From Tridacna crocea (Eukaryota > Mollusca > Bivalvia > Cardiida > Cardiidae), in the NCBI GenBank assembly GCA_943736015.1, contig OX031062.1:4012501-4076500 (forward strand): 64,000 nt of DNA. Reading direction: 5' to 3'. Of the stretch, positions 2,769-61,564 are shown piece after piece (the stretch's first letter is position 1; every line of letters begins with the position of its first letter). The notes under the pieces were generated by a model that worked only from the letters and a program-made list of their open reading frames with translations, was not told the origin of the DNA and made no database searches. A program made the translations under genes and the position numbers.

Positions 2769-3249
2769 TTCTAGTGCTTACTTTGTTAAGTTGACAACAG
2801 CACTGAAAACCTGCTTTCTTTATTTAAACTTGTCCAAATTTCATATTGTTAATTAGTTTTTCAGCTATTCTTGTACAAATATTAAACTCTTTACCAAACG
2901 ACAAACTTTTTAGACCGGTCCATATTGAATGAATTGTAGACAACAAATGAAATGAGACTTAAACGACATCTAGGACAAACCGAAATTGAGAGCATGGCTC
3001 AAATATTTTTATTTCATTGATGGAATTCTGAAACGAAACTCTGTGAGGGAAAGGTTATTAAAGGTCAGTACTGCCCAACAAATTAATTCAGTTAATAAGA
3101 GAATAGCCCTGATCTGACTAAAGCTAATTCGGTTTGATTAAACTTGAGGCCCTGATTTGAAACTGTGTCTGCAGATTTGGGCGTATTTTTACTGAACTAA
3201 TTTTGCGCCAAAGGCTAGAAAATGAAGCTTTTTGTGGACTGCATACATC

Positions 3250-3286
3250 CAAGATCAGACTGCACAATACGTGCAGTCTGATCTTG
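3250..3286. repeat. Short hairpin CAAGATCAGACTGCAC
   Basis: A 16-base arm, a short loop and an exact inverted copy. The same motif occurs in the second TTAA-MITE family (28655-28857) and in the repeats that accompany the D-type stalk exons. Confidence 0.6.
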
Positions 3287-3442
3287 ATTATATACTGTCC
3301 GCATTTGGCATCGATTGTAATTGGGAAAAAAACCGAGTTAATGAAATTTATCATGTGGAGCTATTTCTTTTTTTTTTAAAGAAGATTACAGTTTGTCAGA
3401 TTAAAAAGTTATGACCTGAGTACAACGCCCTTTGACTCCTAG

Positions 3443-6246: not shown

Positions 6247-6462
6247 TTAACCCTTTCCCAAACAATCCCTGGTTTTTACGGGTCTGGAATGGTAGCCTTT
6301 TGAAAACATTGTGGGAAAAGGAGAAAATGCTGGTAACCAGCATTTTCTCCTTTTCACACAATGTTTTCTACCCGATCATCTTTTCAGCAAGAGTTGAATT
6401 GTCGTCTGCAAATGCTTCCAATTTGGTCTAGTCCAAAAGTTTGTCGTTTGGGAAAGGGTTAA
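6247..6462. mobile_element. TTAA-flanked palindromic MITE
   Basis: Starts TTAACCCTTTCCCAAACAA and ends with the inverted form ...TTTGGGAAAGGGTTAA. Central palindrome intact. This copy shows the terminal inverted repeat of the family most clearly. Confidence 0.8.
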
Positions 6463-6919: not shown

Positions 6920-7186
6920 CTATTCCATATACCATTGCGGTGTTTTGTGGATTCTTTGCACACGGTCTTGGCTCCTGGGTTTCTTCATTCTCACGACCAC
7001 GTGGTATAAAACAAGGCAGATAAGTAACACCCCTGTCATGGCACCTGCGCCGTACCCAGCATGCTTTAGGATTTGGGCAACCGTCATCTTTGGTCGCCTC
7101 TTTATAATCTGAACTCGTCTCTCCACATTATCCGGACCACGTACAATACAGTAACAGCTGACCTTCCCGCTGTTAACAACTTGTTT
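6920..7186 (-). CDS. Terminal exon: membrane-proximal segment, TM helix, cytoplasmic tail
   Basis: After the acceptor TTTCTGTTTCAG the frame reads 88 residues to TAG at 6920-6922. Residues 9-13 are VSCYC, followed by a basic stretch (IIKRRPK). A hydrophobic helix (residues about 44-66, including TGVLLICLVLYHVVV) follows, then RMKK and a 20-odd residue tail ending QWYME. Positive charge just after the helix fits a type I membrane protein. The exon starts in phase 0 like the A exons, so it may be a modified A exon fused to a TM. No known signalling motif is visible in the tail. Confidence 0.85.
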   Translation of the reverse strand, partial: KQVVNSGKVSCYCIVRGPDNVERRVQIIKRRPKMTVAQILKHAGYGAGAMTGVLLICLVLYHVVVRMKKPRSQDRVQRIHKTPQWYME

Positions 7187-7846: not shown

Positions 7847-10800
7847 GTTTTTTCTCAATATAGTTTTATCAAAGCGATTGTTTATAAAAGATACTCACCG
7901 CTCTTTGTGCAGCTGCAATTACAAATATTGATAATAAAATTAAAACAATGTATACATAGACACAATGTTAAAATGCCTAAGAAATACTCAACATTGTTAT
8001 ATAGTATAAAAAGCAAACCTTTTATTAGTTGCACACAATTAGGAGTAGATAACTAACCCTACTGATCAGTGTATTCGAATGCTCGGGAAAAAACACAACA
8101 GAGGGTATTGTGGATCAGTAAATTTTGTGACTATATATAGTATGTATAATCATTCATAGATATATGCTTTTTCAACCTATAAAAGTGCAATGATAGTTTT
8201 ATGACGAATCATTGTTTTCTAATCTATCAATAACGATTTCATTTTTTTTTTTGCATAAAATAAAATAAAATTATTCCTTTGAAAGGTTGTAGCAAAAACA
8301 GAGACAGCTCTTCCAAGCGAAAATAATACTCACCCCCTCTTGCAGCTGCACCAGTACATACATCTGTTACGAAAATCAAGACGAGAAATACAGAAAGAGG
8401 ATTTAATGCTTCTTTGAGATGTATTTTATCTAGCATTATTTAGCCAAATTTAATTTGGTGTGTGCAAATGGTTAAACCCTTTCCCAATTAATCCCTGGTT
8501 TTTACGTGTCTGGAATAGTAGCCTTTTGAAAACATTGTAGGAAAAGGATAAAATGCTGGTAACCAGCATTTTCTCCTTTTCCCACAATGTTTTCTACTCT
8601 ATCATAGACAGAAATCATCTTTTCAGCAAGAGTTGAATTGTCGTCTGCAAATGCTTTCAATTTGGTCTAGTCCAAAAGTTTGTCGTTTGGGAAAGGGTTA
8701 AATATGAAGAAGTCTAAACATTTCATCTTCTAGTAAAGTGTTATAAGGCTGCAAATTTAACGAAATCTTCATTTCATGCAAGATCAACAGGACAGGTTAA
8801 AGTGTCAAATGCCATTGAATGTCAGACAGACCCCTTGGTTAGCGACACTTGCATAGCAGCCTTCGACTGAATATCCGTACTCAAGATGTAGAGAACAGAA
8901 CAAAACATGGATTATCTGACAAAAACTACATACATGTAATTTATAGTCATACAGTAATATATATAAATTCTAAAACAGATGCATTTAGTCACACGATTTC
9001 TTACTACATGTGTTTACAATTCCAAATCATTTTATGAAACTTTGAAAAAGAAAAGGAGTAAATAAGTGAAAATATAAAACAGACGAGTATTTAAAGAATT
9101 ATACTTCATTGGTAAAATATCATGAAATAGAAGTGGGTAAGTTGGCATTTTTGTGTATCTGTCTATTTTTCGCTTTTTTTTTTTTTTTTTGAGAAAAGCA
9201 GTATGCCCTCAAATTAAAACTGCCACGAAATATTTGAAAGAATCGGCACAATAAGTAAAAAAAGACGTGCCTGTTCATTATGCTGATAGCTTTATTGAAC
9301 TGTTCAATACAACCAGTGTTGGCTTACCTGATGTCATCGTTGTGTTGTCAGTAACAGAAATGGTGTCAGACACTGTGCAAAAATTAAGTATATACACGTG
9401 CAGTGCTTACAAAATAATTTACTCTAAGCCGCTAAGTGTGATACAAGGACCTTTAGCAGACAGTGCAGATCAAGATCAGACTACACAACACATGCATTCT
9501 GAACTTGAATATATACTGTTCGATACTATGAGTGTATTTCTCTGGAAACTGCAATGGTTTGGTATCTAGGATTACTGTTGGCAGAAAATCTTTATTCTAT
9601 TCATTTAGCAGTATAAGAGCTAACAAATGAATATCTTATGTTGTCTTATGTTGATTATATTGGATTTGACAAAGATAAGGGAAGATTGGGTCGAAGAAAT
9701 ATCTAAGGGAATTAAGTAAAAGACAATAACATCGATTTCAATATAATAATTCACATACGGCGCAGTGTCAAAAATTGATGAAATTAAAGAATAAAAAAAT
9801 AGATAATAATAAAAAAAAATGTGAATGCCATTGGAGGTCCAAAGAGTAGCTATACATTTTTTATAAGAATTTATAGTAAAGTTACAAATGTTTAACCCAA
9901 TACCAAACGACACTATTTTAGACTGGTCCAAATTGAAAGCATTTGCAGACGACATTATTAAAGTGACTGAAAATTTTTAATTTGTTTTGTGAAGGGTAGA
10001 AAACACTGTGGGAAAAGGAGTAAATGCTGGTTACCAGCATTTTCTCCTTTTCCCACAGTGTTTTCAAAAGGCCTCTTTCTCAGGGGGCGTCAAAAGTAGG
10101 GATTGTGTGGTAATGGGTTAATTTAGTTTTGTTGCTATCATTGCTGTTTTCTAGACTCAAGACTTTTGAATTTGTAGGTGCTTTGTGTTTGTGTATTTCT
10201 CAGATATTCATTTCTGTGAGCTTATTGTCTCCTACAACATGTGGAAAATACCATTTCTTTATACTGAATTCATTGATACAGAAAACACAAAGTTTCAGAT
10301 GTTTACTTTTGCTGCTGTCCTTCTTATTTCTAGACACAAGACTTTTGAATCTTTACATAGGTATTTGGCGTTGATATATTTTCAAAATTTCCGATGCTTT
10401 AAGCTTAGTGTCAAAATCAACATACAGAAATTATACTTCTTTACGATAAATTCATAAAATCCATTATATATAGATCTACATATTTTACACATTTTTTTAT
10501 CCTAAAAAATCCAGTTATGCTGTCAAATGAAAACTGTCATGAAATTACTGATAGACTAAGCACAATGAAGTAAAAAGAAACCAGCGGAATATTTATACTT
10601 ATATCTTTATTCAAGTAATAAATGCATCCAGTGATAGCTTACCTGATGTACTCGTTGTGTTGTAAGTAGCGGAGGTGGTGTCAGACACTGCTACAAAAAT
10701 AAAGAATATACAAGTGCTCACAAAACCTTCACCCATAGGCTGGTGAGCGTTACTCAGGAACCTTTCGCAGATAGTATTATCAAGATCAGAATACACAATT

Positions 10801-13800
10801 TATGCAGTCTGCGGTTTGTAGTAAAAGGATATTTTAATTCAAACTTCTCTTCACTTGTACTGCATGGTGTTTTTGAAACATACATTACACTTTCAAATTC
10901 AAATTGGCAAAAAGTCATGAACAGCATGGGCAAAACTGGATTCGAATATGTGCGGGTTAAAGTTAAAGGAATTTTTTAATTAATTTTTTTTTATGCAACT
11001 GGTATTTGTTTACCTGATGTACATGTTACGCTGTTGGTCACAGAAGGGATTGATGGAACAGCTGAAGAAAAAAAGAGAAAATATACCTGTACATGCATAT
11101 CCTTATAAAATGAGTATTTTTTATGTCTGCTATGACACCTACAAGATTGGACGAAAAGGAAACAAATTTAAATATGACCTTCATGTGAATGAGCTACGGC
11201 TTGTGAAAATGGGGTTTACTATACCTGAAAAAAGTATCAACTCTTGCAGCCTGTGCAGTCCAACCTGGCAGATGTTCGTTGAATTTTTTTGCTGTGTGAT
11301 AATTGTTTGCATGCCAAATGACTATTCTTTATTTCATGCTTTCCGGTAGGATATCGAGAAATAGCAGTGAAAATATTTTTCGATCTTACACTGGTACCAC
11401 CAGTAAAAATACCGATTTTCACGTATTTGTTGCCTAGGTAAATTGTGCGTGCCTGACAACCAGATGAGAAATATGACGTCATATACCTTAGATTTCTCGC
11501 CCTTGACGTAATATTGTTATGCGTTTCTATGCGGGAGGGGTACGCCACGGGGAATAACAGAAAAAAAAAACTGTACTGGATTTTGATAAAGCTCCTCCCA
11601 GGAAGGGTTAAGAGCATGAAATAAATAGAATATTTATTTTTTTCGGTGAAAGATCGAAATTTATTTCATCTCGCTGCGCCACTCGTGAAAATATTACCCA
11701 TGGTGTTCACTCGATGAAATAAATTTCTATCTTTCACCGAAATTCATGCTTTTCGGTAGAATATCGAGAAATAGCAGTGAAAATATTTTTCGATCTTACA
11801 CTGGTACCACCAGTGAAAGTACCGATTTTCACGTTCTTGTTGCCTAGGTAAATTGCGCGTGCCTAACAACCAGATGGGAAATATGACGTCATATACCTTA
11901 CATTTCTTGTGCTTGACGTAACGTTGCTATGCGGGAGGGGTACGCCACGGGGAATAACGGAAAAGAACTGTACTGAATATTGATAAAGCTCCAAGCAGAA
12001 AGGGTAGAAAGCGTGAAATAAATAGAATATTTGTATTTTTCGGTGAAAGATCGAAATTTATTTCATCTCGTAATTATTTCATCGAGTGAACACCATCGGT
12101 AATATTTTCACGAGTGGCGCAGCGAGATGAAATGCTGCGCCACTCGTGAAAATATTACCGATGTTGTCCACTCGATGAAATAAATTTCGATCTTTCACCG
12201 AAAAATACAAATATCCTCTATGCCTTCAGGTCCAGTCCAACGTTAGACCTAATTGATTTTATGGATCCATTATATTGTGATAAAATGCTTAATACAATCC
12301 ATTATATACACATTTTTCACCTTTTTAGCCTAAAAGAATAAAAGTATGCTGTCAAATGAAAAGTGCCATGAAATCACTGATAGACAAAGCACAATGTAGT
12401 AAAAAAGAAACGTGCGTAATAATTATACTAATATCTTTATTCAACTAATAATGCAACCAGTGTTAACTTGCTAACCTGATGTACTCGTTGTGTTGTATGT
12501 AGCGGAGGTGGTGTCAGACACTGTTGCAAAAATAAAGAATATACAAGAGCTCAGGAACCTTTCGCAGATAGTGTAAATCAAGATCAGACTACACGGCACA
12601 TGCAGTGTAAGGATTAACCCTTTGGTTGCTTATCTTGTATCACTGGCCTTTTTCGAGAAAGTGTAGATCAAGATCAGACTGCACATAACGTACTGTATTG
12701 AAAAATAAATTTCATGTAGATGAGCCATGGCTTGTGAAAAAGTGGCTTACTGCATCTGAAAAAGTATGAACCATTGCAGCCCGTGCAGTCCGTACAATAG
12801 GCCGGAGCCTTTTTGTTAAAAAAAAAAAAATGAAAATTTGGAGGGTGCGGCCTATCAGACGAATCGGCTTATATGTTATTTGTATTTCTCTAAACGATCT
12901 TTCCTGCGGCATGTTATACTGAAAATAAGTTAAAATCAGTTTTTGGATTTCCCTTATGAAGACCATTCTGGTTCACGTCCGTAAAGAATTTTTCGAACAC
13001 TAGTACCTTTAGTTGGTAGAAAAATTGATCTGCTTGCAAAACTTACGAATGCGTTAAAATTCGTTTCCAACCTTGAGTTTTACACCTGTTAATTGATAAT
13101 AACTCTTAGTACCAATCAGTGGTAACTGCGAATGCAGTGAAAGGCGTTGTTTGGTGTATAGCGTAAATTAATCAATCGAAATGACAGTTTGACTACTTTA
13201 TAAATTACGTTAAATATTCGACAAAGGATAAATGAATGTGAACGGTATCAACTCCTTGGACTGATTTGATCTGCGGAAGTAGAATTCACTCTGATGGATT
13301 GAAAAAAACAATGCAAAAATAACGTATTTGTTTCATATGTTAATTATTAGCGTAACTAGTAAAAAAGAAAATTGCGTTTAATTGATTATGCCTTTTTATT
13401 TCATACTTTCCTGTATATCATAAAGAAATATCGGTAATGTATTCTTCGACATGTCATGGACACGACCAGTAAAAATAAGACTTTTATATTCTGACGCTTC
13501 AATTGAAGGCAGAAACAGTGGTTCCTGCGCACTAGTTACTGAGGTAAAATGCGCGTGCCTCACAACTAGATGTAAATATGTGTGCCATTCGTTGAAATAT
13601 TGCTTATTATATTCAATTAGATTTCAATCTTTCACCGTAAAAAAAAACAAATATTCTCTATATCTTTATACAGTTGATAAATGCAACCAGTGTTGGCGTA
13701 CCTGATGTACTCGTTGTGTAGTAAGTAACGGAGGTGGTGTCAGACACTGCTGCAAAAAATAAAGACTATACAAGTACATATAAAACCGTCATCCATAGCC

Positions 13801-16800
13801 TGCTAAGCGCAACTCAAGCACTTTTCGCAGATAGTGTAATTCATGACCAGACTTCACAACATATGCAGTCTGATCTTGAATCTACTCTGTCCGATACTGC
13901 CAAGTTTATTTCTCCAGCAATATGCACTTTGTTATAACAATGTTTCGGTATCTAGGATTACTGTAGGCTGAAAATCTTCGTTTTATTCATTTAGCAGTGT
14001 AAGGGTTAAACAATTAGCATCGTCTGTTTTTTTTTTTTTGGATTATACTAAAATAAGGGAAAATTTGGTTGAAGATATATCAACAGGTAAAGAAATAAAA
14101 ACAATAACATGGATTTCAATATCTTGAACATCATATGACGCAGTGTTAAAATAGATAAAACTAATCTTAGAAGATTGAATGTCATCGAAGATCCTTATGA
14201 AAAGTTGACGTATTTTGTAAGAATTTATCGTAGAGTTACAAGTGTTTACTTAAGTTTTGTTGTTGTATTTTCTATTTGCTAGACACAAGACTTTTGAATT
14301 TGTTGGTGCTTTGCGTTGATGTTTTTTTTTTTTTTTAATACATATTTCCAACAACATGTAGAAATATCATTTCTTTACATAGAATTTATCGACACAGAAA
14401 AAACAAATATTACCCCTGGCTTACATATATATCACGGAGAGTTTTAAACAAAACAGACCAAAAAAGAGAAAAGGGAGTTGACATTTCCTGTGACCGTGTA
14501 TGCTTAGTCCATTTATACACATTTCTTTTTGTCTTTTTAAAATTCAAAGTGTCACGCAGTCATGAACCACAAAGGCAAAACTAGCTTCCAAAACGAACGG
14601 ATTTTCAATCAATGGATATTTTAAGTCAACTTTTTTATGCAGCCAGTATTTGCTTATCTGATTTATTAAGTGCATTGTAAATAACAGACGGAGACATAAA
14701 ACAGGTGAAAAACAAAAATAGAAGAGAATATACCGATGCATAAAAAACCTTGACAAATGATTGTTTTTGCGTATCTGCAAGGAAAACCTTGTAAGATGGG
14801 ACGTAAAGGAAATATGCAAATGAGCAATACACGGTGAAAATGTAACTCGCTGCGTCTGCAAAAAGTATAGACTGATGTTCATAGACTCACATCTTTATTC
14901 AACTTGTAATTGGAGAGGTCATCAGACCTCTCCAACAGTGTTGAGTTTAAAAGGCAGACTGCCTCAGAAATTGCTGTCTAAATCCAATCTTTGTAGGGGA
15001 ATTGTTCCGATACACAGTCTGTTTCGTCATGATTTTATAAAGAAATCGAAGTCTAAAAACTGAAATAGGAAATAGACGTGGTTTGTTTCTATATCACGAA
15101 TTTCAACAAAATTGTAAGGATTTAATTGCATATTCCCTTTCCAACAATTTTAATTTTGTATTACAATCTTAAATCTTAACAAAAAGAAGAAAAAGAAAAA
15201 AAAAAGAATTTCGTTAAAAATAGAAACGAACACAGCGGAAAAAATCACGTGACCTTAAAACGCGGGAAGAAGGTCGTGTGACTTACATAAATTACAAGGA
15301 CGGATGAATACGGAATCCTGTTTTTGCCATCCACTTTGATGAATGTGTATTTACAACTGAACAGATTTCAACTTCCCGTTTATTGTCTTGCTTGTTTCTT
15401 TACATGTACCTAGATTATATTTAACCTAAAAGCATAAAAAGTATTAGAAAAAAATGATGTCGACCTCTCCTGGCTTCTTTTTTAAAGAAGCCACTTGTTA
15501 CAACCAATGTTAACTTACCTGATGTACTCGTTGTGCTGTACGTAACAGAGGTAACGTGAGACAATGCTGCAAAAAATAAAATTAGACTAGTGCTCACAAG
15601 ACCTTTATTCCAAAGCTACTAACCGTGACTCAAAGACTTTCGCAGACAGAGTAGACCAAGGTCAGACTACACAGTACACGCGGGCTGATTTTTCAATTAC
15701 ACTGTCCGATAAGGTGAGTTTATTTACCCAGCAATAAGCACTTTGTTATTGCAATGTTTTGGTATATAGGAATACTGTTGTCTAGAAATGTGAATATCCG
15801 TTTTATAGCAGTGTAAGTTTTAAGAAATTACTATCTTTTTTTTTACAATAGATTGAATTCAGATTAGATTAAATTCTGTCGAAAACATATCTATAAGTAA
15901 AGAAATAAAAACAATAACATGGGTTTCAATATCGTAAATATCATACTGCGTAGTGTTAAAAATGGACAAAACCAAAGAATCGAAAATTGAATGCCATCTG
16001 AGGTCCTAAGAATAATTTTGCATTTTTTGTAAGAATTCATTGTAAAGTTACAAAGTCCTTAGTTTTGCTGTCGTCGTAGCTGTTTCCAGAGCAAATACTT
16101 TTGAATCTGTAGGCGTTTGGAGTTAATGGATTCTTTAGATATTTATTTCTGTGAGCTTTGTATTGCAAATAACACAAAGAAAATGGTATTACCTAACAAT
16201 GAATTCATCGATACAGAAAACAGTTTCCCTTGGTTTTATATAACACGGGGGATTTTCAAACCAAAACAGATGAAAAAAAGAAAAAAGAAAAGAGTTGCTT
16301 GAATTGACAGTTCCTGTACCTCAGTATGATTAGAGAATGTACATACATGTATATGTACATGGTTTTCTGTATTGTATGTTTTAAACAAACATTACGCTCT
16401 CAAATTCAAACTACCACGAAGTCATGAAGAACAATAGCAAAACTAGCTTCGATTATGTGCTGATTGTAGTCAAAGGATACTAGTATTTCAATTCAACCCT
16501 TTTTATGCAGCTGATGTTTGCTTACCTGATGTACTTATTACGTTGTTGGTCACAGACGGGGTCAGTGGAACGGCTAAGAAGAAAAAAAAAATACCTGTGC
16601 CTACAAAACCTAACAAACGAGTACTTTTATGTCTGCCATGAAACTTACTGAGATAAGATGAAAGGAAAATATATAAAAAAAATGATCTTCATATAAATGA
16701 ACCATGGCTCGTTATCTGGAAATAAAGTATTCACCCATGCAGCCTGCGCAGTCCACATAGGCTGACATTAGTCGAAACTTTTTTTCTGTTTGAAAATTGT

Positions 16801-19800
16801 CGGCACGTCAAATGACAATTCTGTCTGAAGGTTTAGTCGATCGTCTGACTAAATAACTTTATGGTTCTATTAAATTGTAGTGACATGCCTGGTATAGTAC
16901 ATTATAGATACACATTTTAGCCTTTTTTTCTTTTTGAAAATAGTATGTTGACAAATGAAAACTATTATAAAATCACTACTCGTTGCTGTTTCTGGACAAG
17001 AGACTGTTGAATCTGTAGGTGTTTAGGGTTGATATGTTTTTTTCAGATTATATTCACTGTGAGCTTTGTATCTCCAATAGATGAAATATGCTATTAATTC
17101 ATCGATACAGAAACAAAAATATTTCCCATGGCTTATGTTTAAAACGGAGAAACCAAACCAGATAAAAGAAAGAGAGAAAGGATTTTCTAAAATAGACAGT
17201 TCCTGTGACACAGCATGCCTGGCGCATGGACATGTGCAAGGAATTCCACTTTGTATTTTTTTAAACAAACGTCACACTCTAAAATTTGGATCGGCACAAA
17301 GTCATGAACAATAAGGGCAAAACTCGCTTCGAAAATGTGCAAATTATAGTTAAAGGACATTTTAATTCAACCATATTTTATGCAGCCGGTGTTTGCTTAC
17401 CTGATATACTTGTGACGTTGTTTGTCAAAGAAGGGGCCATTGAAACAGCTGAAGAAACAAAAATAATCACCAGTGCATACAAAAAACACAGACTTTTTAA
17501 ATCTGTAGATGCTTAGTGTTTCAGTATTTTTAAGGTATTAGTATCTGTGAGCTTTGTATTGCAAATAAAACAAAGAAAATGCTATTCCCCTTCCACAATT
17601 TCATCGATACAGGAAAAAAACCAAGAATTTCCCCTGGCTTATATATAACACAAACAGTTTCAAACAAAAACCCATAAAAAAAACCAGGAATCAGTTGCTT
17701 GAATTGACAGTACCTCTGTCTCAGTATGCATAGTGCATGTACATGGTTTTCTGCATTGTATGTTTGAAACAAACGTTGCACTCTCAAATTAAAATCCTCA
17801 CGAAGTCACGAACTACAAGGGCAAAACTAACTTCGATTATGTGTGGGTTATAGTTAAAGAATGTTTCAATTCAACATTTTTATGCAGCTGATCTTTGCTT
17901 ACCGGAAGTACTTGGTACGTTGTAAGTTACAGAAGGGATCATTGGAACAGCTGAAGAAAAAAATGCATGTATATCCTTAACAAATGAATATTCTGATGTC
18001 TGTGATGAAGCTTTCTAAGAATGGGCAAAAAAATAAAAAAAATCAAAATTGAACTTCATATAAATAAGCTATAACCTGTGAAAAGGGGTTTTCATGCATC
18101 TGAAAAAATAAAATATTTGCTTATGCACCCTCGCAGTCCACACAGGATGACATGCATCGAAACTTTTTTCTGCGCTAGAATTGTTTGTCACATGACCATT
18201 TAGCATCTGGTCCAGTCCATCGACAGATTAATTGATTTTAGGTTTCTATTAAATTGTAGTGACATGCCTGGTATAATACATTACAAATACACATTTTTAA
18301 CATTTTTTTTCTTTTTCAAAAAAAGTATGTTGACTATTATAGAATCACCAACAGACTTTGCTTAACCAGTAAAAAAGTAATGTGTGTAATAACGATACTT
18401 ACATCTCTAATTCAAGTAATAAATGCAGTTGATGTTAGCTTACCTACTGTAGTCGTTGTGTTGTAAACAACGGATGTGGTATCAGGCAATGCTGCAAAAA
18501 TGAAAATATACTAGTGCCTGCAAAACCTTATTTTCTAGTCTGCTGAAGGCATTTCAAGGACCTTTCCCTGATACTGTAAATCAAGATAAGACTACACAAC
18601 ACATGCAGTCTGATTTTAAATTTTCTCTGTCCGTTACTGTGTGTTTACTTGTACAGCAATAAACACTTTGTCATTCCAATGATTTGGTATTTAAGATTAC
18701 TGTTGGCTGGAAATCTTCATTTTATTCTTTCAGCAGAGTAAGGGTTAACAAATTAGTATCTTCTGTTGTTTGTAATGCATTACACTTAGATATGAGAAAA
18801 CTGTGTAATATCATCTGAGATTCTACTAGGAAGTTTAAAAAAAATAAGAATTTATAGTGTGGTTACCAATGTTTCCTTTAGTTTTGCCACTATCAATGCT
18901 GTTTCTGGACACGAGACTTTTGAATCTGTAGGTGTTTAGGGTTGATATATTTTTTCAGATATATATTTTTGTGAGGTTTGTATGTCCAACGACAGATAGA
19001 ATATGCTATTCCCGTACAATTAATTGATCAATACAGAAACAAAAATATTCCTCCTAGCTTATATTTAACTTGGAAAGTTTTTAACCCAAACAGATAAAAG
19101 AAAAAGAGAAAGAAGTTGCTAAAATTGACTGTTCCTGTGACACAGAATTCCCAGCATGTACATGTGCAAGATTTTCTTCTTTGATTTTTTGACACAAACA
19201 TTACACTCTTAAATTCGAATCGGCACAAAGTCATGTACAATAATAGTTTCGAAAATGAGCAAATTATAGTTAGAGGATATTCTAATTCAACCATATTTTA
19301 TGCAGCCAGTGTTGCTTACCTGATATACTTGTGACGTTGTTTGTCAAAGCAGGGGTCATTGAAACAGCTGAAAAAAAAATTTAATCACCAGTGCATACAA
19401 AAAACACAGACTTTTTAAATCTGTAGGTGCTTAATGTTTCAGTATTTTTAAGGTATTAATATCTGTGAGCTTTGTATTGCAAATAAAACAAAGAAAATGC
19501 TATTCCCCATTCCACAATTCCATCGATACAGGAAAAAAAAAAAGAACTATTTTCCCTTGCTTATATATAACACAAACAGTTTCAAACAAAAACCCATCCA
19601 AAAAAAAGAGGAATCAGTTGCTTGAATTGACAGTACCTGTGTCTCATTATGCCATGATAGTGCATGTACTTGGTTTTTTGCATTGTATGTTTGAAACAAA
19701 CGAAGTCACGAACTACAAGGACAAAACTAACTTCGATTATGTGTGGGTTATAGTTAAAGAATATTTCAATTCAACATTTTTATGCAGCTGGTGTTTGCTT

Positions 19801-22800
19801 ACCGGAAGTACTTGGTACGTTGTAAGTTACAGAAGGGATCATTGGAACAGCTGAAGAAAAAAAAAGATGCATGTATATCCTTAACAAATGAATATTTTGA
19901 TGTCTGTGATGAAGCTTTCTAAGAATGGACAAAAAAATAAAAAATCAAAATTGAACTTCATGTAAATAAGCCATAACTTGTGAAAAGGGGATTTAATGCA
20001 TTTGAGAACATAAAATATTTGCTTATGCACCCTCGCAGTCCACAAAGGATGACATGCATCGAAACTTTTTTCTGTGCTTGAATTGTTTGCATGCCACATG
20101 ACCATTTAGCATCTGGTCAAGTCCATCGACAGATTAATTGATTTTATGTTTCTATTAAATTGTAGTGACATGCCTGGTATAATACATTACAAATACACAT
20201 TTTTAACATTTTTTTTTTCTTTTTCAAAAAAAGTATGTTGACTATGCAAACTACTATAGAATCACCGACAGACTTTGCTTAACCAGTAAAAAAGAAATGT
20301 GTGTAATAACGATACTTACATCTTTATTCAAGTAATAAATGCAGTTAGTGTTAGCTTACCTACTGTAGTCGTTGTGTTGTAAACAACGGATGTGGTATCA
20401 GGCAATGCTGCAACAATGAAAATATACTAGTGCCTGCAAAACGTTATTTTCTAGTCTGCTGAAAGCAGTTCAAGGACCTTTCCCTGATAGTGTAAATCAA
20501 GATAAGTCTACACAACACATGCAGTCTGATTTTAAATTTTCTCTGTCCGTTACTGTGTTTACTTGTACAGCAATAAACACTTTGTCATTCCAATTATTTG
20601 GTATTTAAGATTACTGTTGGCAGGAAATTTTCATTTTATTCTTTCAGCAGAGTGAGGGTTAACAAATAAGTATCTTCTGTTGTTTGTAATGCATTACACT
20701 TAGATAAGAGATAACTGTGTAAGAAGGGGTCAATGAAAGAGGTGAAAAAACAAAATTTATCACCAGTGCATACAAAAAACACAGACTTTTTAAATCTGTA
20801 GGTGCTTAGTGTTTCAGTATTTCTAAGGTATTAATATCTGTGAGCTTTGTATTGCAAAAAAAATTAAGAAAATGCTATCCCCCTACGATCATTATGTCGA
20901 TACAGAAAACACAAATATTTCCTCTGCATTATAAATAATACAAACAGTTTCAAACCAAAACACATCTAAAAAAAAAAGAGAAAGAAGTTGCTTGAATTGA
21001 CAGTACCTGTATCTCAGTATACTTAGTGCATGTAAATGGTAACATGGTTTTCTGCATTGTATGTTTGAAACAGACGTTGCACTCTCAAATTAAAATTCCC
21101 AGGAATTCATGAACAACAAGGGCAAAATTAACTTCGATTATTGTGCGGTTTGTACTTAAAGAATGTCTTAATTTAACATTATTTTATGCAGCTGGTTTTG
21201 TTTATCGGAAGTACTTGTTACGTTGTATGTTACAGAAAGGATCAATGGGACAGCTGGAAAAAATGCATGTATATCCTTAACAAATGAATATTTTAATGAA
21301 CATGTCTGCGATGAAACCTTCTAAGAATGTGCAAACAGAAAACATATTTCAGATTTAACTTCATTTCAATAAGCCGTACCTTGTGATTTAAGGTGACTTA
21401 TTGTATCTGAAAATAGAGCCTGCGCAATTAGCACAGGCTGACATGCATCGAAACTTTTTTTCTGTGTGAAAATTGTTTGCATGTCAAATGACCATTTACC
21501 ATCTGGTCCAGTCCATTGTTAGACTAATGATTTTATGGTTCTATTAAATTGTAGTGACATGCCTGCTATAATACATTATAAATACACATTTTTAACATTT
21601 TTTTTTCTTTTTCAAAAAATGTATGTTGACTATGCAAACTACTATAGAATCACCGACAGACTTTGCTTATCCAGTAAAAAAGAAATGTGTGTAATAACGA
21701 TACTTATATCTCTATTTAAGTAATAGATAAATACATTGAGTGTTAGCTTACCTGATATACTCGTTGTGTTGTAAGTAACGGTGGTGGTGTCAGGCACTGC
21801 TGCAAAAATGAAAATATACTAGTGCCTGCAAAACCTTTATTCCTAGTCTGCTGAGGGCATCTCAAAGACCTTTCAAACGAGATAAAATTACACAACACAT
21901 GCAGCCTAATTTTGAATCTTCTCTGTCCGATACGGCGTGTTTACTTGTCCAGCAGTAAACACTTCGTTATTACAATGATTTGGTATCTAGGTTTACAGTT
22001 CGCTGGAAATCTTCATTTTATTCATGTAGCAGAGTAAGGGTTAAAAACTAGTATATTCTGTAATGGATTACACTTACATGTAGATAAGGGAAAATTGTGT
22101 CGAAGATAATTATATCGACAGGTAAAGAAATAATAACATGGATTTCAATATCTTAAATACCATACGACTAAGTAATAAAAATGGATGAAACCAACCTTCG
22201 CAGATTGAATGTTATAGGAGGTCCTAAGAAAAAAACTTGCATAACATTTTGTAAGAATTTAAAGCAAAGTTAATGTTACTTTACTTTTGCTGTTGTCGTT
22301 GCTTTTTCTAGACGCAAGAACTTTTAAACGGGCCAATGTGCACATGAATATCTGGTTTTCACCTTTCATACATAAATTTCATTCATTCCCTCTAAAAACA
22401 GAGCAGCTGAACAACCGGATGCTTATATATTATTCTTAAAATACATGTTAACACAAAAGAATACTTAGTTATGATTGAATGTCTCAAATGTGAACATAAT
22501 ATTTGAAGTCATATCTAAGGCTTCTTTTTTGTGAGATTTAACTCATTACCACACGAGAAAATTTTGGACTGGTCCAAATTGAAAGCATTTGCAGACGACA
22601 AAATAAAGGTGACTGAAAAATAGAATTTTTTTCTGGGAAGGGTAGAAAACACTGTTGGAAAAGGAGAAAATGCTGGTTACCAGCATTTTCTCCTTTTCCA
22701 ACAGTGTTTTCAAAAGGCTTCTTTCTCAGGGGCGTCAAAAGTAGGGATTGAGTGGTAATGGGTTAAAGGACCTGGATATAAGGTTAGTATCAGTTTAAGA

Positions 22801-25800
22801 TTTATCAAAGTTACCAAATATATAAATTCGACGTCTTTATGCGGCTGAATACATAACTCAGTTAAGGACAGGGCACCCTAATGGGATTTGTGTAATATCA
22901 CCGTTTATTGCTCAAATCGTACATACTGGGCTAAAACTCTGATAATCTGAAATCTGAAATCGAAATCGAAGTATCGGCCGATCGGTTACGGATTACGAGT
23001 GTCTTTGCCGAATCTTCTTTTTTTTTTTGGAGGTGACAGGCGATGTAACAAGAATCCCATCAGGGTGCCCTATCTTTAACTCTGAAAGATTTCTGTGTTA
23101 TAGGCTTGCCTTAACAAGCTGGAGGTGTAGAATCAAGATCAGAATGCAGGTTCTGCCTTTGTTTTCGCCCATGGCGTTTAAGCATTGAAATGCAAAGTAT
23201 GAACAAGACACAGTTAGTACCTATTTCACATTCCGATCCCGAGAACCGGCTTGTGCATTCGCATACAGGGATGTTGTTGCTAGCGTTGCAAAATCCACCA
23301 TTTGCGCAGTGTAACCTTTGGCACGGACCATATTCTAAAACAAAAATTAACTCTTTACCAAACGACAATATTGTAGGCTTGTCTAAATCGAAAGCATTTG
23401 CAGACGACAAAATAAAAGTGATTGAAAGTTTGAATTTTTTTTTTTGTGAAGGGTAGAAAACATTGTGGGAAAAGGAGAAAATGCTGGTTACCAGCATTTT
23501 CTCCTTTTCCCACGATGTTTTCTAAAGGCTTCTTTCTCAGGGGCGTCAAAAGTAGGGATTGTGTGGTAATGGGTTAATGCATACACTGTTAGTCCTGGGG
23601 CTGCTGAGCTTGACTTGATCCTGAAACTTTCAAATGTATTTTACCTGTATGAAGTTCTTACAATTTGTATCGGTTTATTCGTAAATCACTAAATACTTAA
23701 AGCCACTTTCAAGGCGTATATTTGGCATCTGTTGTAGAAACACAGGAAACAGATTTAAGAGCAAGACTGGGATTGAAGGCTTTACGCCATTAAAATCCAA
23801 TTCAGTCACACTCTTAAACATACTGGTAAAAAATATCTTAAAGATAGTCTTAGCTGAAATCAAAAACAAATTAAGGAAATTGAACCATCCGACATTATCA
23901 CATCATGGGAGTTAAACTGGTTGTTTTTATCGGATAGAAAAAATAGAAGGTAACTAACATAGATCATGTATGTAAGTTACTTACCTGTTCTGGTTCTTAT
24001 TTCTACTTGAATATGTCTTTCTTCACCTCTGTTGAGATATAATAATGATAATAATGATGATAATAATAATAAGACCATAGCTACTAAAACAAACATTGTT
24101 CAGTAAACTAGAGAGTAAGTGTTCAAAATTGGTACATAATCTGCCAGTGCATACCAAATACTCTATTTTTACATCAGTTGCGGTTTGGACACTGGATTAA
24201 GGTAAGACCTGTGTAATGGAAAACAGCTATTTCCACTAAAATATCATCCTGCAAAATTAGCTATAATTAAAAATGAGTATTATTGAACTACTTTCACCGA
24301 TTCATTTTTTTTTTTCCATTTTTTCCTTCTTTGAATTATCATTTATAAATCTAAAACCACTATATTCTCAATTCAAAAACAGATAATAAATACCTCCCTT
24401 TTCAGAAAACTAACAAAAGTATCAAAAAATAAATTCAAGATAGACATAAACGGAATTTCTGATCCGTTAGAAATGTGCAAAAATATTATTTCTGCATAAA
24501 TCTTTATTTATCCTTATTTGTTAACCAATTAGGATTTTTGCCCCATGTTCACCGGAAGCGCAATACACAAGTCTTACCTTAAAAAAAGATGCATCGCGTA
24601 GCTAAAAGGGGTCGGTGTGAAACGAAAATAAGTACCTGAAAAGGTACAACGATCAAAAGTCTAACATTAAATCAGTCTAAATTATAAATAAAGACAATGA
24701 ACTTAGTGACTTAACTATCTTTGAATGAAATATTTTGAATTTCATTTTCTGTAGTTGATATATTTTATGAAAGTTAATTATCGTAGTCAGAAGTGGTACA
24801 ATCAAAGATAGATTCTTTTTATGAAGGAACCAACCGCCTTCAATAAGTCATAAATATTAAAATCCTACCCAGACGATAAGCAAATATCTTGAAACGTGCT
24901 CGAGTGTCCAGTTTTGATAGCCACGTCTGCAAGGCAGCTGGTACCGTGTTGTATATCAAACACATGTAAACCTGGGACACCTACACCACATTCTCGTAGT
25001 TCGGTGCTGTTAAAAAAAGAAGTTAATGATCCATGCTCTAGAACAAGGGGTTAACACTTTCCCAAACAAGTCCTGGTTTTTACGTGTCTGCAGTAAAAGT
25101 CTTTTGAAAACATTGTGGGAAAAGGAGAAATTGCTCGTATCGAGCAATTTCTCCTTTTCCCACAGTGTTTTTTTACCCTTTTTGAGAACTTTCTGCCATT
25201 GTCTCAAAATCTAAAATTGTCGTCTGCAAACTCTTTCAGTTTGGAAGAGTCCTAAATTTGGGTTAAATAAATCTCCGTGGATGCATTTATCCTAGTAAGT
25301 CATCACATAGTTTTGGATTTATGTACTATTCAAACTTTGATAGGGGTCACTTACATATTTCTGTATGGATTTATAAGTTACAACACTTTTGCATAAACTC
25401 ATTACCATTCTTTAAAACTCTAGATTTGTCCAAGTTGAAAGCATTTACTGACTAAAAACTAAATGCAACGTGCACTATGCTGTCTGTAATAGAGTAGAAA
25501 AAATTGTTGAAAAAGGAGAAAATGCTGGTATCAAGCATTTTCTCCTTTTTCCAACAATGTTTTCCAAAGGCTTCTTTCTCAGTGTCTTTAATAGTCGGCA
25601 TTGTAAGGTAAAGACTTAAAGATCCATTTCCAGCGGTCATTTTATTGCTCAGTGTAGCAATGTAACTAATTGTAAAATCATACATGATACATGCCACATA
25701 TATATTTAGAGTGAATCTTTTGGGGTGATCCCTAGCAAATTTTGAGTAGTATAATTGGTGTGCAACACGCGAAAAGGGACATTCGGACATCTGCGTAAAG

Positions 25801-28800
25801 TGTCGTCTCGGATCAGCCTGCGCAGTCCGCGCAGGCTGATCCGAGACGGCACTTTACGACTACATTAGATTTTGTGCTACAGTAGACATGCGCAAAACAG
25901 AAAATGGAATTAAAACGGAATGTGCCGTCTCGGATTAGCCTGTGCGGACTGCGCAGGCTGATCCGAGACGACACTTTACGCAGATGTCCGAATGTCCCTT
26001 TTCGTGTGTTGCAAGCCAAATTATAATCCATCTAGTCTAACAACTGACTGAATCATATAAGAAAGTATTCCTTTGAATGATGAACATCGACCGATAGCAA
26101 AATGTTTGGACACAGATCAGCTTTAGCAAACCTCCACAGGCTGACCTGGGTCCTTATCTTTTGTAGATTGTTAAGCCCCATTTTCACAGAGCATGGTTCA
26201 AGAGTTTTTTGCACTAAATTTTTCTTGATTCTTGACCATGTATGCAAAAACAGTATACAGCTTTTGGCACGGAAAGACGGTTTAATTTAAATGTGGAAAT
26301 ATAGGTACCTAGTAATTACGTTCAGATTTTTATAGTAACCACGAAAAAAAAAAAAACTGTCCACGTGTTTCTGTAATAAAATGTTTGATTCAAAGAAGCG
26401 AAAACACATGGCAGATACCGTTGTGACAGACTGTATTAACTTTTGGACAAACTGGTATACATGATATAACTTAAAAAATACCGACGAGAATCGAAAAGAC
26501 TGGACCCGTTACTTGCAATAGGAACTTGTGGCAAAAGCATTGTAAATAGCCATATAACTAAACTTGTACTATACATTTTCAAGATAAATAAGACAGAATC
26601 AAAACTTTGGTTCAGGGTTTAGGATTAGCGTTAAGGTCGAATTAGTATCTTTGTAATAATGAATACCACGATACAATGAAAACACGTCTCTTACCAGTTC
26701 AGACTCCCGCTCATGACGAAAGACAAATGACATACGCTGTCAGTTTGGCATGATAAAGTAGATCCGTTTGAGTATGAGCTATTCCCAAAGTTAGAACCAG
26801 CCTGTAATAAAGCAATACGAAGTATGTTATTATTGATATCAGTCCTTAACCAGACACCATATGATTTCATCCATAAAGTATCGCATCAGTTTTGATGCTA
26901 CTGTGAGCCATCGATTGCTCATAGTCCGAAATTAGTTTGGTATCATTTTATCTAATACACTTATTGTACGTTTCTGAGAATTACGACAGGTAGCCCATAG
27001 GAGTAGTAATGGCAAGAGCGTATAACACTCGTTTCGAATTGTACTTGCAGCCGTGACCACTTGCGTATTTGTATTTCTATTTTGTATACTATTTCCCTCG
27101 AAGAACATTCAAGCTTCAGGGATGTGGAGTTTAAAAATAAACACTAATATTTATACGGCGGCATTTTCGTTTGAAGCCACTATTTTATTGTAGGAAAGCA
27201 TAACAATTATAATAATAAAAAGAAATAAGGAGTTCCAAAAGCAGTGACTGATTTCATCAGAATATCTTAGTTAGCCACCTTCACACAGATCTGAATGTTC
27301 TCTGCCCAGAAAATCATCCCAAATCATTTGACAACTAATTGGAATTAAAATAAAATTATTTTCGATCGAGAATATAACACATACCGAAGAAGGAGGCGTT
27401 GTTGTTAAACCAGCTGTAACAGAAAAGAAAGACGTTAGATACGGCCTTAAACTCATACTTTAATTGCTGATCATGTCACGGCCCATGCCAGGGTCCATTG
27501 TAACAAAACTAAAATGTAGCAGGTTTCCGCTTCTTCTTGGAGGTAAATCTTGGAATGATGTTCGAAAAGACAAAATTCGATTTAAGGCGTGCTTTAGTGG
27601 CAGAAACGTGTGCTTTAGATTAAAAGTGAGCAATAACCAAATGGTAATGTTGATGCAAAAAAGAAATTTTAATATATAATCATTATTGCTTAGTTCTGAA
27701 ATCACGAATAGCTTAGTATAGGTATCAGTACTGTTGAAAGTTTAACTTAAATAGCGAAGATAATGAAATTAAGAGTAGGCAAGTAGAGCAAATTTTTTTA
27801 AAAAATAGTACCTGAAACTGTAATATTGAAGCAGATCTCATCCAAATTTAACCTGAAAACAAATAATCAAGACTGTAGTTTTATACTAAAAATTTACTTC
27901 CATAATTTTTTTTTTCATTACGCGGATCCATGTATGAATCTTTAAAAAGCTACATTGGTGTTTTATATAAACAGCTAAGCCATAGAGAATGCTTTATAAT
28001 TTTCAAAAAGATTTTGCACCTCAACTGCTTCAAACCTGAAGACAAATAATCAAGACTGTAGTTTTATACTAAAAATGTACTTCCATAGTATTTTTTTTTT
28101 TATTTATTTGTTTCATTACAAGATATGAATCTTTAAAAAGCTACATTGGTGTTTTATATAAATAGCGAAGCCATAAGGCTTTATAATTTTCAAAAAGATT
28201 TTGCACCTCAACTGCTTCAAACTTCGTTTAAAGATCGAACAACAAGTATCTTGCTACAGTTTCAACAACACAAGCTACAAAGCCTTTCGTAATAAAAGTC
28301 TACCTTGTGAAATGCCTATGTACCTTTTGGAAGAAAACACATCTTTGATTTTGATTTTTTTCCTCATGAGATAACAGGTTTGCGTTCAGTATGTTTATCC
28401 CGAATATGTTGATACCGAATCTGCATTAAGTTCCCTTAACCCATTACCACACAATCCCTACTTCCCTGAGAAAGAAACCTTTTGAAAACATTGTGGGAAA
28501 AGGAGAAAATGCTGGTAACAAGCATTTTCTCCTTTTCCCACAATGTTTTCTAGCCTTCACAAAACAAATTTCAAATTTTCAGTCACATTTATTTTGTCGT
28601 CTGCAAATGCTTTCAATTTGGACAAAACCTAAAATTTTGTCGTTTGGTAATGAGTTAAGATGCTCAGCGCTACACGAGGCGCTTTTGGGGACAGTGTAGA
28701 TCAATATCAGACTGCACAAAATGTGCAGTCTGATATTGATCTACACTGTCCGAAACGTTATTTTTTTTGCGGTGAAATCAACTTTGAACTGCAATATTTG

Positions 28801-31800
28801 GAGTTTTACTACCCTGAAGAAATACTCGTTTCATTTATTTGGCAGCTAAAGGGTTAAAAGACCAAAAGATAGTTGGCAGATAAAATAATTGGACGCCCAA
28901 CTTGCTACTAACCCATCTCTTGATCCATTAAGAGTAGTCTGTATGCACGACCTGTGTACACCAGCATGAATGTTTGTTAGAGTATACAGCGCAATATGGG
29001 TTCCATTGGCTGGTGTAGATGCCACAGTTATGTTCGATACACTTAATGGTGAGCTTATATATCCTGGCAAAGGTCTGAAAAATGGATTCATTGCCCATTT
29101 TCTCAATTTTAACACTAGTCATCGTAATAGTCTCAACCAATTGCATGGCTGTTTTCATAAATTAGAGTAATATCAAATTTTAAGCCTACTGTCGTAAAAG
29201 GGGGATTGATGAGTCTACGTGATGCAATTTACAAGGAAGTCATTAGTTTACAATGGATCCATAAAACCAGTTTTGTTTAACAACAGCTAAATTTTAAAGT
29301 AAAATAGCCCTTTGACAAAGAGGAAGTTTACAAACAGAAAACAGGTACGCCTTGTCTCAGCCTTGGCAGACTTTCTAGAAATGCATTGAAACCCTTTTCA
29401 CAAAGCAGATTTTTTTTTTAAATTTCCAAACACCAAAAAGGCAATGATAACAATGTCGACAAATCAGATAGCTACTATGAGAATTTTGAGAGTAAAATGT
29501 AGAATAATTGATGTATGTGGTGAAAAAAAAATCGTAAAGGTTCCAGAAAGCATTTCAGATAATTTCTCTTTCAAAGGACTAGTATATTCAAAAGAAGTCA
29601 CTCATTTCTTTTTCATAATGCCAGATAGTAAATAAACAAGATCATTTTTCACGTTCTATTCCACCTTGAACTACTGAAGCGGCACGCTCCTTTCTGTCAA
29701 GACGTGTAGATGAGCAGTTTTCTACGTGTTGAAATAGTGAAAGACAGAGATTCTTCATGACACTATTTATAAATATTAAACTATTTTTATTATCTATAAA
29801 CTGTGCTGTAACTATTGGATAAAATGTAGCTTGCACGAGGTTCTTTTATCCAGAGAAAGACCAGTCAAGGATACGGATAACGACAATTATGTATTAGATT
29901 TGATAATTAGAGACATATTTAAATATTCTGTTCGATGAATTGATTTAAGTACGATTTAGTTTGATCTCTATACTGTTCCAGCTTTATCTACATGTATACA
30001 TACACTGTACCCAATATTTCGATATGTAATTGCATGAAATGTAATGAAATTCAAATTTAGAAAATAGAACGATAAATTAAATGTTGAAAGGTTTACTCAC
30101 GGTTTGTTTGCATCACCTCTGTAGGTAATTTGAACAGTACATGGTCTGTTTTCTATACACATAACATTTGAAGGAATGCCACTCGTTTGATCAAAATGAG
30201 GTGTTTTATCCGACTGAGTGGAGTTTTTAGAAGAATTAGTATCAAAGTAGCCTGGTAAGTGTGTTACTGACTGGTTATCTGCCAATAAAAAAGTAAGATG
30301 CCGTGAAGGGTCGAAGGTCTTATATTGTACGTATAATTAAGAAAAAGTACTAAAAAAATAATTACACCCAAACGTTACTTTTGCTTACAGATCATAAACT
30401 ATATAGGCACTTACCTAAATCAGTGTTTCAATGAAATAACGTCGAATGAGAGTGGTGTCAAGCACTGAACTACTTGTTTTTTTTTTTTTTCACAGTTTTC
30501 AGAGACGTCACTATTTGCGTTTGTAAACTCAAACGAGATATTCGATTTCATAAGCATGCTCTATTCACGAGACCATAAAAAATGAAAATTTCACTTAATA
30601 TATGTTTGAATGGTGAAAAGTTGCAGTATAGAGTTATGAATTCGTTTTCCGGCTAGGTGGCAGGGCACTTGGAAACTTGTTCACGGCTGTGGCGAATCAT
30701 GTCATGTCATGCCTTTAACTCAGGCCTACTTGCATGCGACAGCCGTGAACAAGTTTCAAGTGCTATGCCACCCGACCATAGTGTGCATCTTTTTTAACAG
30801 TTTCTGAAGGTCCAAGGTAAATCATTAAAGTCAGTATCGCAGATCATAAATGATGCACACAAATGGTTTAACACCTAGAAAGTGCCCTTGAAACTACAGT
30901 TTCACTTAAAATAAAATAAAAAATGTCAGCGGTATTCTTGATGACGATAATGATAAAAAATTTTCCATGATAATAGCTTTAAATACATGTACTTCTGAGT
31001 GTGTTGCACAAGTTAAACATTACTTACCTTGAGAACAGTCATCTCCAATATATCCGCTTTGACAAATACAATTTCCGGTTGAAGGTTGTACAGACAGGTC
31101 GGCAACACACACTGCACTATTCTCACACGTCATTCCAGCACACGGTCTGGTCACTGAAGATGATTAAATCACAGAAAGCTATGCCGTATAAAAAAACTTA
31201 CACCGTCCTTGAAAACATTTTCAGTGGAAGTTTAGTTTTTTTGGGCATTTCTAGATTATAGATAAACCCTTCGAAAACTATTCCATATTTTAAGTAATTT
31301 TTAGACGTTGCAAGCCGAATTAATAGCTACATTTCACAATGTAGTAGTCCTAGTGATGGTTCACATATTTCAGTGAATACTGCGTCTGTTTTGTGATAAT
31401 GCCATTTCATATATTGCCATAAACTGCATTTTAAGTAAAGATAACCCGATTTCAGTATGTTGAAAAAAATTAAAGGAAAATAAATCAATAAATGAATGAA
31501 AATTAATCGGTGGTGATAATAATAATAGCAATAATAGGCAAGAAGCTTGGAAGTTATTCTAGACCAAGATCGCGTTCATAAAATCAGCTAAATTACGTAG
31601 AGATCTCACAATCCGCTCCGACTTTATGCCTACTTTGCATAGCAAAACGGTCGACATCTTATTCTTAATAAATGCTGATTTTATTCTTTAAAATACATTT
31701 TGATAAATAGCGAGTCGATTTCGTTGTTTCAGATATTATCTGAGGTAGTAGTTCATCTTACATATCATTTTAAAATGTTGAGAAAGTTATAACCGAAATT

Positions 31801-60500: not shown

Positions 60501-61564
60501 TCTGTGGTTGGTCCGACATCTCAGTTTTCCTTGAACACAAATAAATTTTCTTTGATTAGTAGGTTATTCAGAATACCTATCTATACTTTACGGTTCATTA
60601 AATGTCTGAAAAAGGCTAAATGTAAAAAGGGTCCATTGAAGAGCCAAGAAGTGCTGTTTAGACCACTAAAATCTGCTGAGTGTACTCTGGATTAGGGTGT
60701 TAACGATGTTCGGCAACAGCCTTTGAGTAATATTTCAAATCTAAAGGCAAGACATTTAAGGCAACCGGCAGTGGAAGCAAGAGAATAAAGAAAATAAAGA
60801 ACAGCTGTCTTACTGAAATAATTCTTAATTTTCATAAGGGACAGTTGTCATATTGAAATAATTTTCAACTTTCTGAACTTCAACTAACTGATTTTAAAGA
60901 ATGTGTTAAATTTGAATTCTCATTAACTCATTATTTGATTTTCCCTCAGGTGGGAGTGTCGCGAATTCTGCGAGTTTTTTATCCTTTTGTCACAATGTTT
61001 TCAAATATTACTTGTTGAATCACCTGTTTATGTAATTTCAGTTACTCATGTAGTAAGAGTACATTTTTGTCTACTCCGGTAAGACTCCGGTTTTATACCA
61101 AGTTAAAGTTTTACTCCGTTTATTGCTCCTTTGGTGTGCTAATTGGGTGTCAACTGATTCTTATGTTTCATATGATTTTCATGCAGCGGAGCCAACGGAG
61201 CACTAAAACCATATAAATAACAGGGTTTGAATGACGAAGGAGGTTTTTGAAAAGGAGTTTGGAAAGCAAACCAGAATAAAAAGAACGTAAAAGTGTTCTT
61301 TCGATAGCTGTAAATCGGCTAATTAAAATAAGAAGAAAAACAAAGAAATGAAAATAAAAAAGGTTCTTTGGATAGCTGTTGTTGGTCAGCTAATTAAAAA
61401 TAATGAAGAAGATTGTCTTCGTTGCTGTTATATTTTTGGCTTATAAATAGATGAATAAAATAAAGAATGAAAATAAAGGAAGTAAACTGAAACTACGGAC
61501 TTGTTTAAAATAACACCCAATGCGCAGAGAATTAAAATAAAGGACTGAAAGGATCTTTGCGACA
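57544..61564 (+). mobile_element. BEL/Pao-type LTR element, non-autonomous form
   Basis: Two 608-bp LTRs (57544-58151 and 60957-61564), TG...CA ended, appear identical by eye, and a 5-bp GATTG duplication flanks the element. A primer-binding site (TGGCGCCGGAACCC) follows the 5' LTR and a purine-rich tract precedes the 3' LTR. The single long ORF (58212-60695, 827 residues) has a gag-like DUF1759 region (about residues 155-300), CCHC zinc knuckles (about 400-465) and a DUF1758-type aspartic protease region (about 510-680). No reverse transcriptase, RNase H or integrase region is seen. It looks whole for a gag-protease type and very young, but it would depend on another element's enzymes. Confidence 0.85.

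Follow-up and report, generated by a model that had tools for sequence, protein, structure and literature searches.

How long is the stalk of a cell-surface receptor when every 15 or 16 residues of it are encoded by a separate exon that can be added or removed without changing frame, and is that length set in the DNA or during splicing? The question is raised by a stretch of 64,000 nucleotides from the bivalve Tridacna crocea (GenBank assembly GCA_943736015.1, contig OX031062.1, positions 4,012,501 to 4,076,500 of the forward strand), hereafter the window, in which all coordinates are counted from the first nucleotide. Its minus strand carries an array of tiny exons (mini-exons) at 9328-21799, in a gene that also contains EGF-like exons. 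We find that the mini-exons are real exons kept by selection on splice sites and frame. The gene product is predicted to be a type I membrane protein with a Ser/Thr-rich juxtamembrane stalk, about 222 residues long once spliced, whose length would be set mainly by DNA copy number; we put the probability of this reading at roughly 0.6.

An array of frame-neutral mini-exons

The array consists of 14 mini-exons, each preceded by AG, followed by GT, in phase 1-1 and free of stop codons; 12 of them are 48 nucleotides in length and two are 45. It extends from the first mini-exon at 21752-21799 to the last at 9328-9372, and is flanked by the last EGF-like exon (23221-23334) and by the membrane exon (6920-7186), with two small exons (8334-8363 and 7899-7912) between the array and the latter. 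An earlier description made from the letters of the window (the sequence-only reading) had given this layout, and its coordinates, count, lengths and phases are correct. It had also claimed that the mini-exons can be joined in any combination, and checking the exon chain bears this out, each being frame-neutral so that any subset reads through. The introns separating them are 323 to 1769 nucleotides long, and thus none appears too short for splicing. A profile search using the exon plus 40-nucleotide flanks, run on both strands of the whole window with matches retained to E = 1, returned the 14 mini-exons together with two other full-length copies and one partial copy of the class called B below, and no exon of the family on the plus strand.

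The mini-exons fall into two classes, A (eight members, type VSDTTSVTYNTTSTS) and B (six members, type VPMTPSVTNNVTSTS); a tree built from the exons and 250-nucleotide flanks divides the two with 100/100 support. Read along the minus strand, they are A1 (21752-21799, AVPDTTTVTYNTTSIS), A2 (20360-20407, ALPDTTSVVYNTTTTV), B2 (19803-19850, AVPMIPSVTYNVPSTS), B3 (19320-19367, AVSMTPALTNNVTSIS), A4 (18444-18491, same sequence as A2), B5 (17903-17950, same sequence as B2), B6 (17401-17448, sharing 46 of 48 nucleotides with B3), B7 (16526-16573, AVPLTPSVTNNVISTS), A8 (15519-15566, ALSHVTSVTYSTTSTS), A10 (13702-13749, AVSDTTSVTYYTTSTS), A11 (12476-12520, VSDTTSATYNTTSTS), B12 (11014-11061, AVPSIPSVTNSVTCTS), A13 (10643-10690, AVSDTTSATYNTTSTS) and A14 (9328-9372, VSDTISVTDNTTMTS). 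A11 and A14 are the two 45-nucleotide members, in which the upstream acceptor AG is gone and an in-frame AG 3 nucleotides further downstream is kept. Three of the 12 mini-exons of 48 nucleotides (A1, A10 and A13) have a CAGCAG acceptor, so that a 45-nucleotide reading is also possible for them.

The three remaining copies, all on the minus strand, are dead B copies. In one (21206-21253) the donor GT has become AT while the frame is still open; in the second (14658-14704) the acceptor AG has become AC, one nucleotide is deleted and the donor GT is again AT. The third (20722-20741), recovered as the partial profile match, is truncated and has lost its acceptor; its B homology ends in mid-exon and is followed by an A-type upstream flank, the mark of what we read as a recombination scar.

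Selection on splice sites and frame

The phase shared by the mini-exons should not be counted as 14 separate coincidences, as the copies derive from one another; the EGF exons of the same gene are likewise in phase 1-1. In class A the exon columns have 0% gaps and 82% identity, while the introns, taken from beyond 20 nucleotides upstream and 8 nucleotides downstream of the exon, are 57-72% identical with 8-18% gapped cells; the corresponding values for class B are 0% and 80% for exons, and 57-78% with 7-23% gapped cells for introns. None of 405 flank windows of exon size was free of gaps in either class, although these windows overlap and are not independent. In class A none of the 405 was as conserved as the exon, and three had one frame open in every copy.

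Survival under neutral drift was simulated, with substitutions only, by letting an ancestral exon evolve along the array tree (the tree of exons and 250-nucleotide flanks) with a midpoint root. The 16 copies simulated were the 14 intact and two full-length dead ones, the truncated copy being left out. On average 2.1 of 16 copies stayed intact with an A root and 1.5 of 16 with a B root, and the observed 14 of 16 was reached in 0 of 4000 runs with each root. With halved branch lengths, 14 intact copies appeared in 0.8% (A root) and 0.3% (B root) of runs. That drift along the full-length tree never kept 14 of 16 copies intact indicates that selection maintains the splice sites and the frame of the mini-exons.

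The gene and its predicted product

Between 32635 and the TAG at 6920 the exons join in a single frame of 2134 nucleotides, in the order of a module end, an EGF, two modules, an EGF, the 14 mini-exons, the two small exons and the last exon. The module is a Cys-containing unit of 95-126 residues, spread over three exons where traced, in which F, S and three C are invariant across five copies. Its copies are interspersed with EGF-like exons on the minus strand at 23985-33621, with pieces up to 50.3 kb. Going upstream from the array, the EGF-like exon EGF5 (23221-23334, phase 1-1) is preceded by a module at 23985-26801 (exons 26695-26801, 24869-25006 and 23985-24028), a module with a linker at 27385-30278 (30101-30278, 28913-29074, 27812-27852 and 27385-27413), the EGF-like exon EGF4 (31028-31153) and a further module at 31816-33621 (33497-33621, 32477-32635 and 31816-31874). 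The exons EGF1 (52161-52277), EGF2 (51444-51554) and EGF3 (40042-40155), with module pieces among them at 40042-52277 of the same strand, probably belong to the same gene. In a Pfam test that covered EGF1, EGF2, EGF4 and EGF5, EGF1 and EGF2 together scored 38.4 bits against a cut-off of 21.5, and EGF4 and EGF5 each fell below the cut-off. Four copies of the Cys module given to Pfam had no match; its profile had a single match in the PDB at E = 1, which was rejected.

Joined together, the 14 mini-exons encode 222 residues, of which 105 are Ser or Thr and 15 are Pro, and an N-X-S/T motif occurs in eight of the 14 repeats. A match of the joined stalk to PF17834 (20.9 bits, cut-off 34.5) was rejected as a low-complexity match. 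Between the array and the membrane, the in-frame chain passes through a 30-nucleotide exon in phase 1-1 (8334-8363, DVCTGAAARG) and a 14-nucleotide exon (7899-7912, AAQRA). The last exon (6920-7186), which has no Pfam match, encodes a hydrophobic segment judged by eye (GAGAMTGVLLICLVLYHVVV) and a short basic tail ending in TAG. Outside the cell the protein would carry the products of five EGF-like exons along with some five copies of the unnamed Cys-containing module; the stalk, the hydrophobic segment and the short basic tail would follow. We infer that the gene is expressed, that the protein lies in the membrane in this orientation with a glycosylated stalk, that the mini-exons are routinely included and that the stalk serves as a spacer.

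Growth of the array by duplication

The array probably started from one ancestral 16-codon exon in phase 1-1, duplicated along with its introns to give two interspersed classes; after the classes had split, repeated unequal recombination would have enlarged it. Because the unit is frame-neutral, the gain, loss or death of a copy would alter only the length of the stalk and its glycan load. One recent step is visible as an A-B-B duplication, in which the exons starting at 20407, 19850 and 19367 correspond to those starting at 18491, 17950 and 17448 with 48/48, 48/48 and 46/48 identical nucleotides, and three of the four intron parts (down to 19368) are 94.8-96.4% alike. Other copies of more than 200 nucleotides are 66-83% alike, apart from two repeat insertions at 88-89%.

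Repeats of other kinds also lie in and around the array. Part of the class A upstream flank has matches outside the array at 28657-28796, 3221-3304 and 44289-44483 (the last weak), on both strands, and seems to hold an interspersed, hairpin-like repeat. The intron between A11 and B12 contains two direct copies of about 330-340 nucleotides with 88% identity (11333-12070, minus strand), apparently a repeat insertion. A palindromic element with the core GGAGAAAATGCTGGTWACCAGCATTTTCTCC occurs, with up to 3 mismatches, in 14 copies in the 64 kb, where none is expected; seven of these are at 1157-1187, 2665-2695, 6320-6350, 10017-10047, 22663-22693, 23474-23504 and 48307-48337, and none of the 14 lies within 10048-22662. 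Exact-pattern scans for the palindrome in a genomic and a viral contig collection gave 0 hits each. The palindrome-free interval would be consistent with recent expansion of a shorter segment, although chance alone could produce a gap this long. The recent three-exon duplication and the dead copies, seen in one genome, make variation in mini-exon number between individuals plausible, and a change in DNA copy number is better supported than variable splicing.

Routine inclusion or variable splicing

The donor sites of the mini-exons score higher than the donors of 20 other exons in the gene model (mean 10.9 versus 7.4 bits, P = 0.003), making routine inclusion likelier than skipping. Most intact mini-exons are therefore probably spliced in routinely, and such strong donors would still leave room for regulated use. 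The sequence-only reading had proposed a stalk whose length could vary between transcripts or individuals. Its stalk holds up, in that maintained, Ser/Thr-rich exons continue in frame from the EGF/module head to the membrane exon. Variable use in transcripts does not fare as well, given where donor strength points.

Several observations weigh against this reading or its parts. The acceptors of mini-exons and other exons do not differ in score (P = 0.33), and the splice weights are generic metazoan values, not trained on Tridacna crocea. In class B, 19 of the 405 flank windows match the conservation of the exon and 122 have one frame open in every copy. The ratio of nonsynonymous to synonymous differences (pN/pS) is 1.09 (0.54-3.28) for class A and 0.56 (0.27-1.41) for class B, and with both intervals spanning 1 it is no demonstration of amino-acid constraint; selection for particular residues is not supported. 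Such a result would fit a stalk in which composition outweighs sequence. The fourth intron part of the A-B-B duplication (18492-19319) aligns at 68% only, and the resemblance of the class A upstream flank to a repeat elsewhere in the window means that the likeness of introns need not all stem from duplication of the unit. Finally, three joins upstream of 33.6 kb mismatch in frame, indicating that exons are missing from the upstream part of the gene model.

DNA and splicing could also act together. If unequal recombination makes the number of mini-exons polymorphic between individuals and splicing brings in still other lengths, a single EGF receptor would have a reach and a glycan coat that differ between animals or between cells, as in the polymorphic mucins of Schistosoma mansoni (SmPoMuc) but on a modular surface receptor. 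We hold this idea of a stalk-length dial tentatively, as possible rather than likely.

Regulated cassettes, with different tissues or individuals joining different subsets of mini-exons into stalks of graded length in the manner of the three mucin-like exons of CD45, seem to us rather unlikely. Frame neutrality would permit any such subset, the CAGCAG acceptors of three copies would permit variants of 15 or 16 residues, and two donors are weaker (A11, 7.8 bits; B12, 7.9 bits). However, the average donor score is higher for the mini-exons than for the rest of the exons, and frame neutrality inherited from one ancestor is expected without any skipping.

The mini-exons are adjacent, homologous, alike in length and in the same frame, which are the features by which mutually exclusive exons are predicted; on the Drosophila X chromosome just 90 of 16180 other exons (0.56%) have these in common (PMC3228551). 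A cluster in which each transcript takes one of 14 alternative pieces of 15 or 16 residues therefore deserves weight. We nevertheless consider it improbable. Joining several frame-neutral exons carries no penalty, and low-complexity repeats would seem more apt for a stalk than for offering alternative binding faces. A crude test for docking gave no clear excess above shuffled sequences: no 12-mer of either flanking intron has an exact complement in more than 3 of the 13 array introns, a level that shuffles reached in 18 and 19 of 200.

That the array has no function and arose as a by-product, its members being tandem duplicates of intron sequence that resemble exons, is very improbable: the three dead copies and the pN/pS values would agree with it, but the neutral runs from either root and the gap-free exons amid gapped introns argue the other way. 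A plus-strand reading was rejected, with no exon of the family on that strand and five plus-strand open reading frames of at least 95 amino acids in the array lacking a Pfam match above cut-off (two have weak matches below it). Rfam and tRNA searches gave no matches.

Comparison with described exon arrays

The sequence-only reading knew of no described gene with this layout, which is mistaken, as SmPoMuc mucins, chicken BG genes and micro-exon genes have it. The comparisons below are with these systems as described in the accounts cited. In SmPoMuc, a 27-bp exon lies in tandem units of about 1 kb, up to 20 per gene; the repeat has predicted glycosylation sites, and its number differs between genes and transcripts (PMC2576457, PMC4015677). 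A frame-neutral tiny exon tandemly repeated with its introns is likewise what the mini-exon array consists of, a resemblance placed by layout only. By contrast, the genomic repeats of SmPoMuc are more than 93% alike, whereas the introns of the array are 57-78% alike and only the recent duplication, in three of four intron parts, reaches 95-96%. The SmPoMuc repeats are found close to the 5' end, the mini-exons between EGF modules and the membrane exon. The array further differs in its exon of 45-48 nucleotides, in having introns more diverged than exons and in holding two classes together. Variation in transcripts is demonstrated for SmPoMuc, while the array is known here from DNA alone.

In chicken BG genes, of the butyrophilin family, a long tail is spread over 27-37 exons, most of them 21 nucleotides in length, and their number varies with gene and haplotype (PMC5938342). 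Like the present gene, BG genes encode a membrane protein and have numerous tiny exons that share one phase, the membrane segment being judged by eye here. The BG repeats are heptads on the cytoplasmic side and are believed to make a coiled coil, whereas the mini-exon repeats are predicted to be extracellular, Ser/Thr-rich, 15-16 residues long and placed before the hydrophobic segment. The BG ectodomain is an Ig-V domain, and the head pieces of the mini-exon gene given to Pfam had EGF-type matches only. Schistosome micro-exon genes (MEG) have many short, symmetrical exons, mostly multiples of three in length, with long introns (PMC10526429, PMC4015677), as the array does. In a MEG, most of the coding sequence comes from micro-exons, whereas the mini-exons account for 666 of the 2134 nucleotides of the traced chain and form one segment of a large modular gene. 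In CD45 (PTPRC), spliced mucin-like ectodomain exons (exons 4-6) change the reach of the receptor (PMC11969063), and each mini-exon would similarly add mucin-like ectodomain sequence. CD45 has three such exons with demonstrated alternative splicing and no tandem array of this kind, and we claim no homology.

Among the matches listed from the literature searched, mostly open-access, no paper described an array of this sort, either from an EGF receptor or from a bivalve. Oyster alternative oxidase reportedly has a duplicated exon, not an array (PMC5589949). On this comparison, the layout is already known in kind and its setting here is an unfamiliar EGF receptor; it appears to work like SmPoMuc, BG genes and MEG, with no membership in these groups implied.

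Other features of the window

A contiguous plus-strand open reading frame of 828 amino acids (58209-60692), with DUF1759 and DUF1758/aspartyl protease matches and a weak zinc-knuckle match, is by these domains the gag/protease part of a retrotransposon, which we take to be BEL/Pao-like. On the minus strand, two overlapping open reading frames at 42113-42830 have transposase helix-turn-helix matches, with the Tc3-type PF01498 above cut-off in one and weak matches in the other, and probably represent a broken DNA transposon. A tandem repeat with a period of 32/62 and palindromic units lies at 43852-44030. An acidic minus-strand open reading frame of 100 amino acids at 345-647, without a Pfam match, ends near a GT donor and is perhaps the first coding exon of a neighbouring gene.

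Significance

The gene offers a clean natural case in which the length of a stalk could change by whole frame-neutral units while the binding head is left untouched. The mucin-like segment of CD45R0 is described as 41 residues spanning 6.6 nm (PMC11969063). Scaled from this value and assuming comparable glycosylation, one 16-residue mini-exon would contribute about 2.6 nm and the whole stalk would measure about 36 nm, so a gain or loss of two mini-exons could matter.

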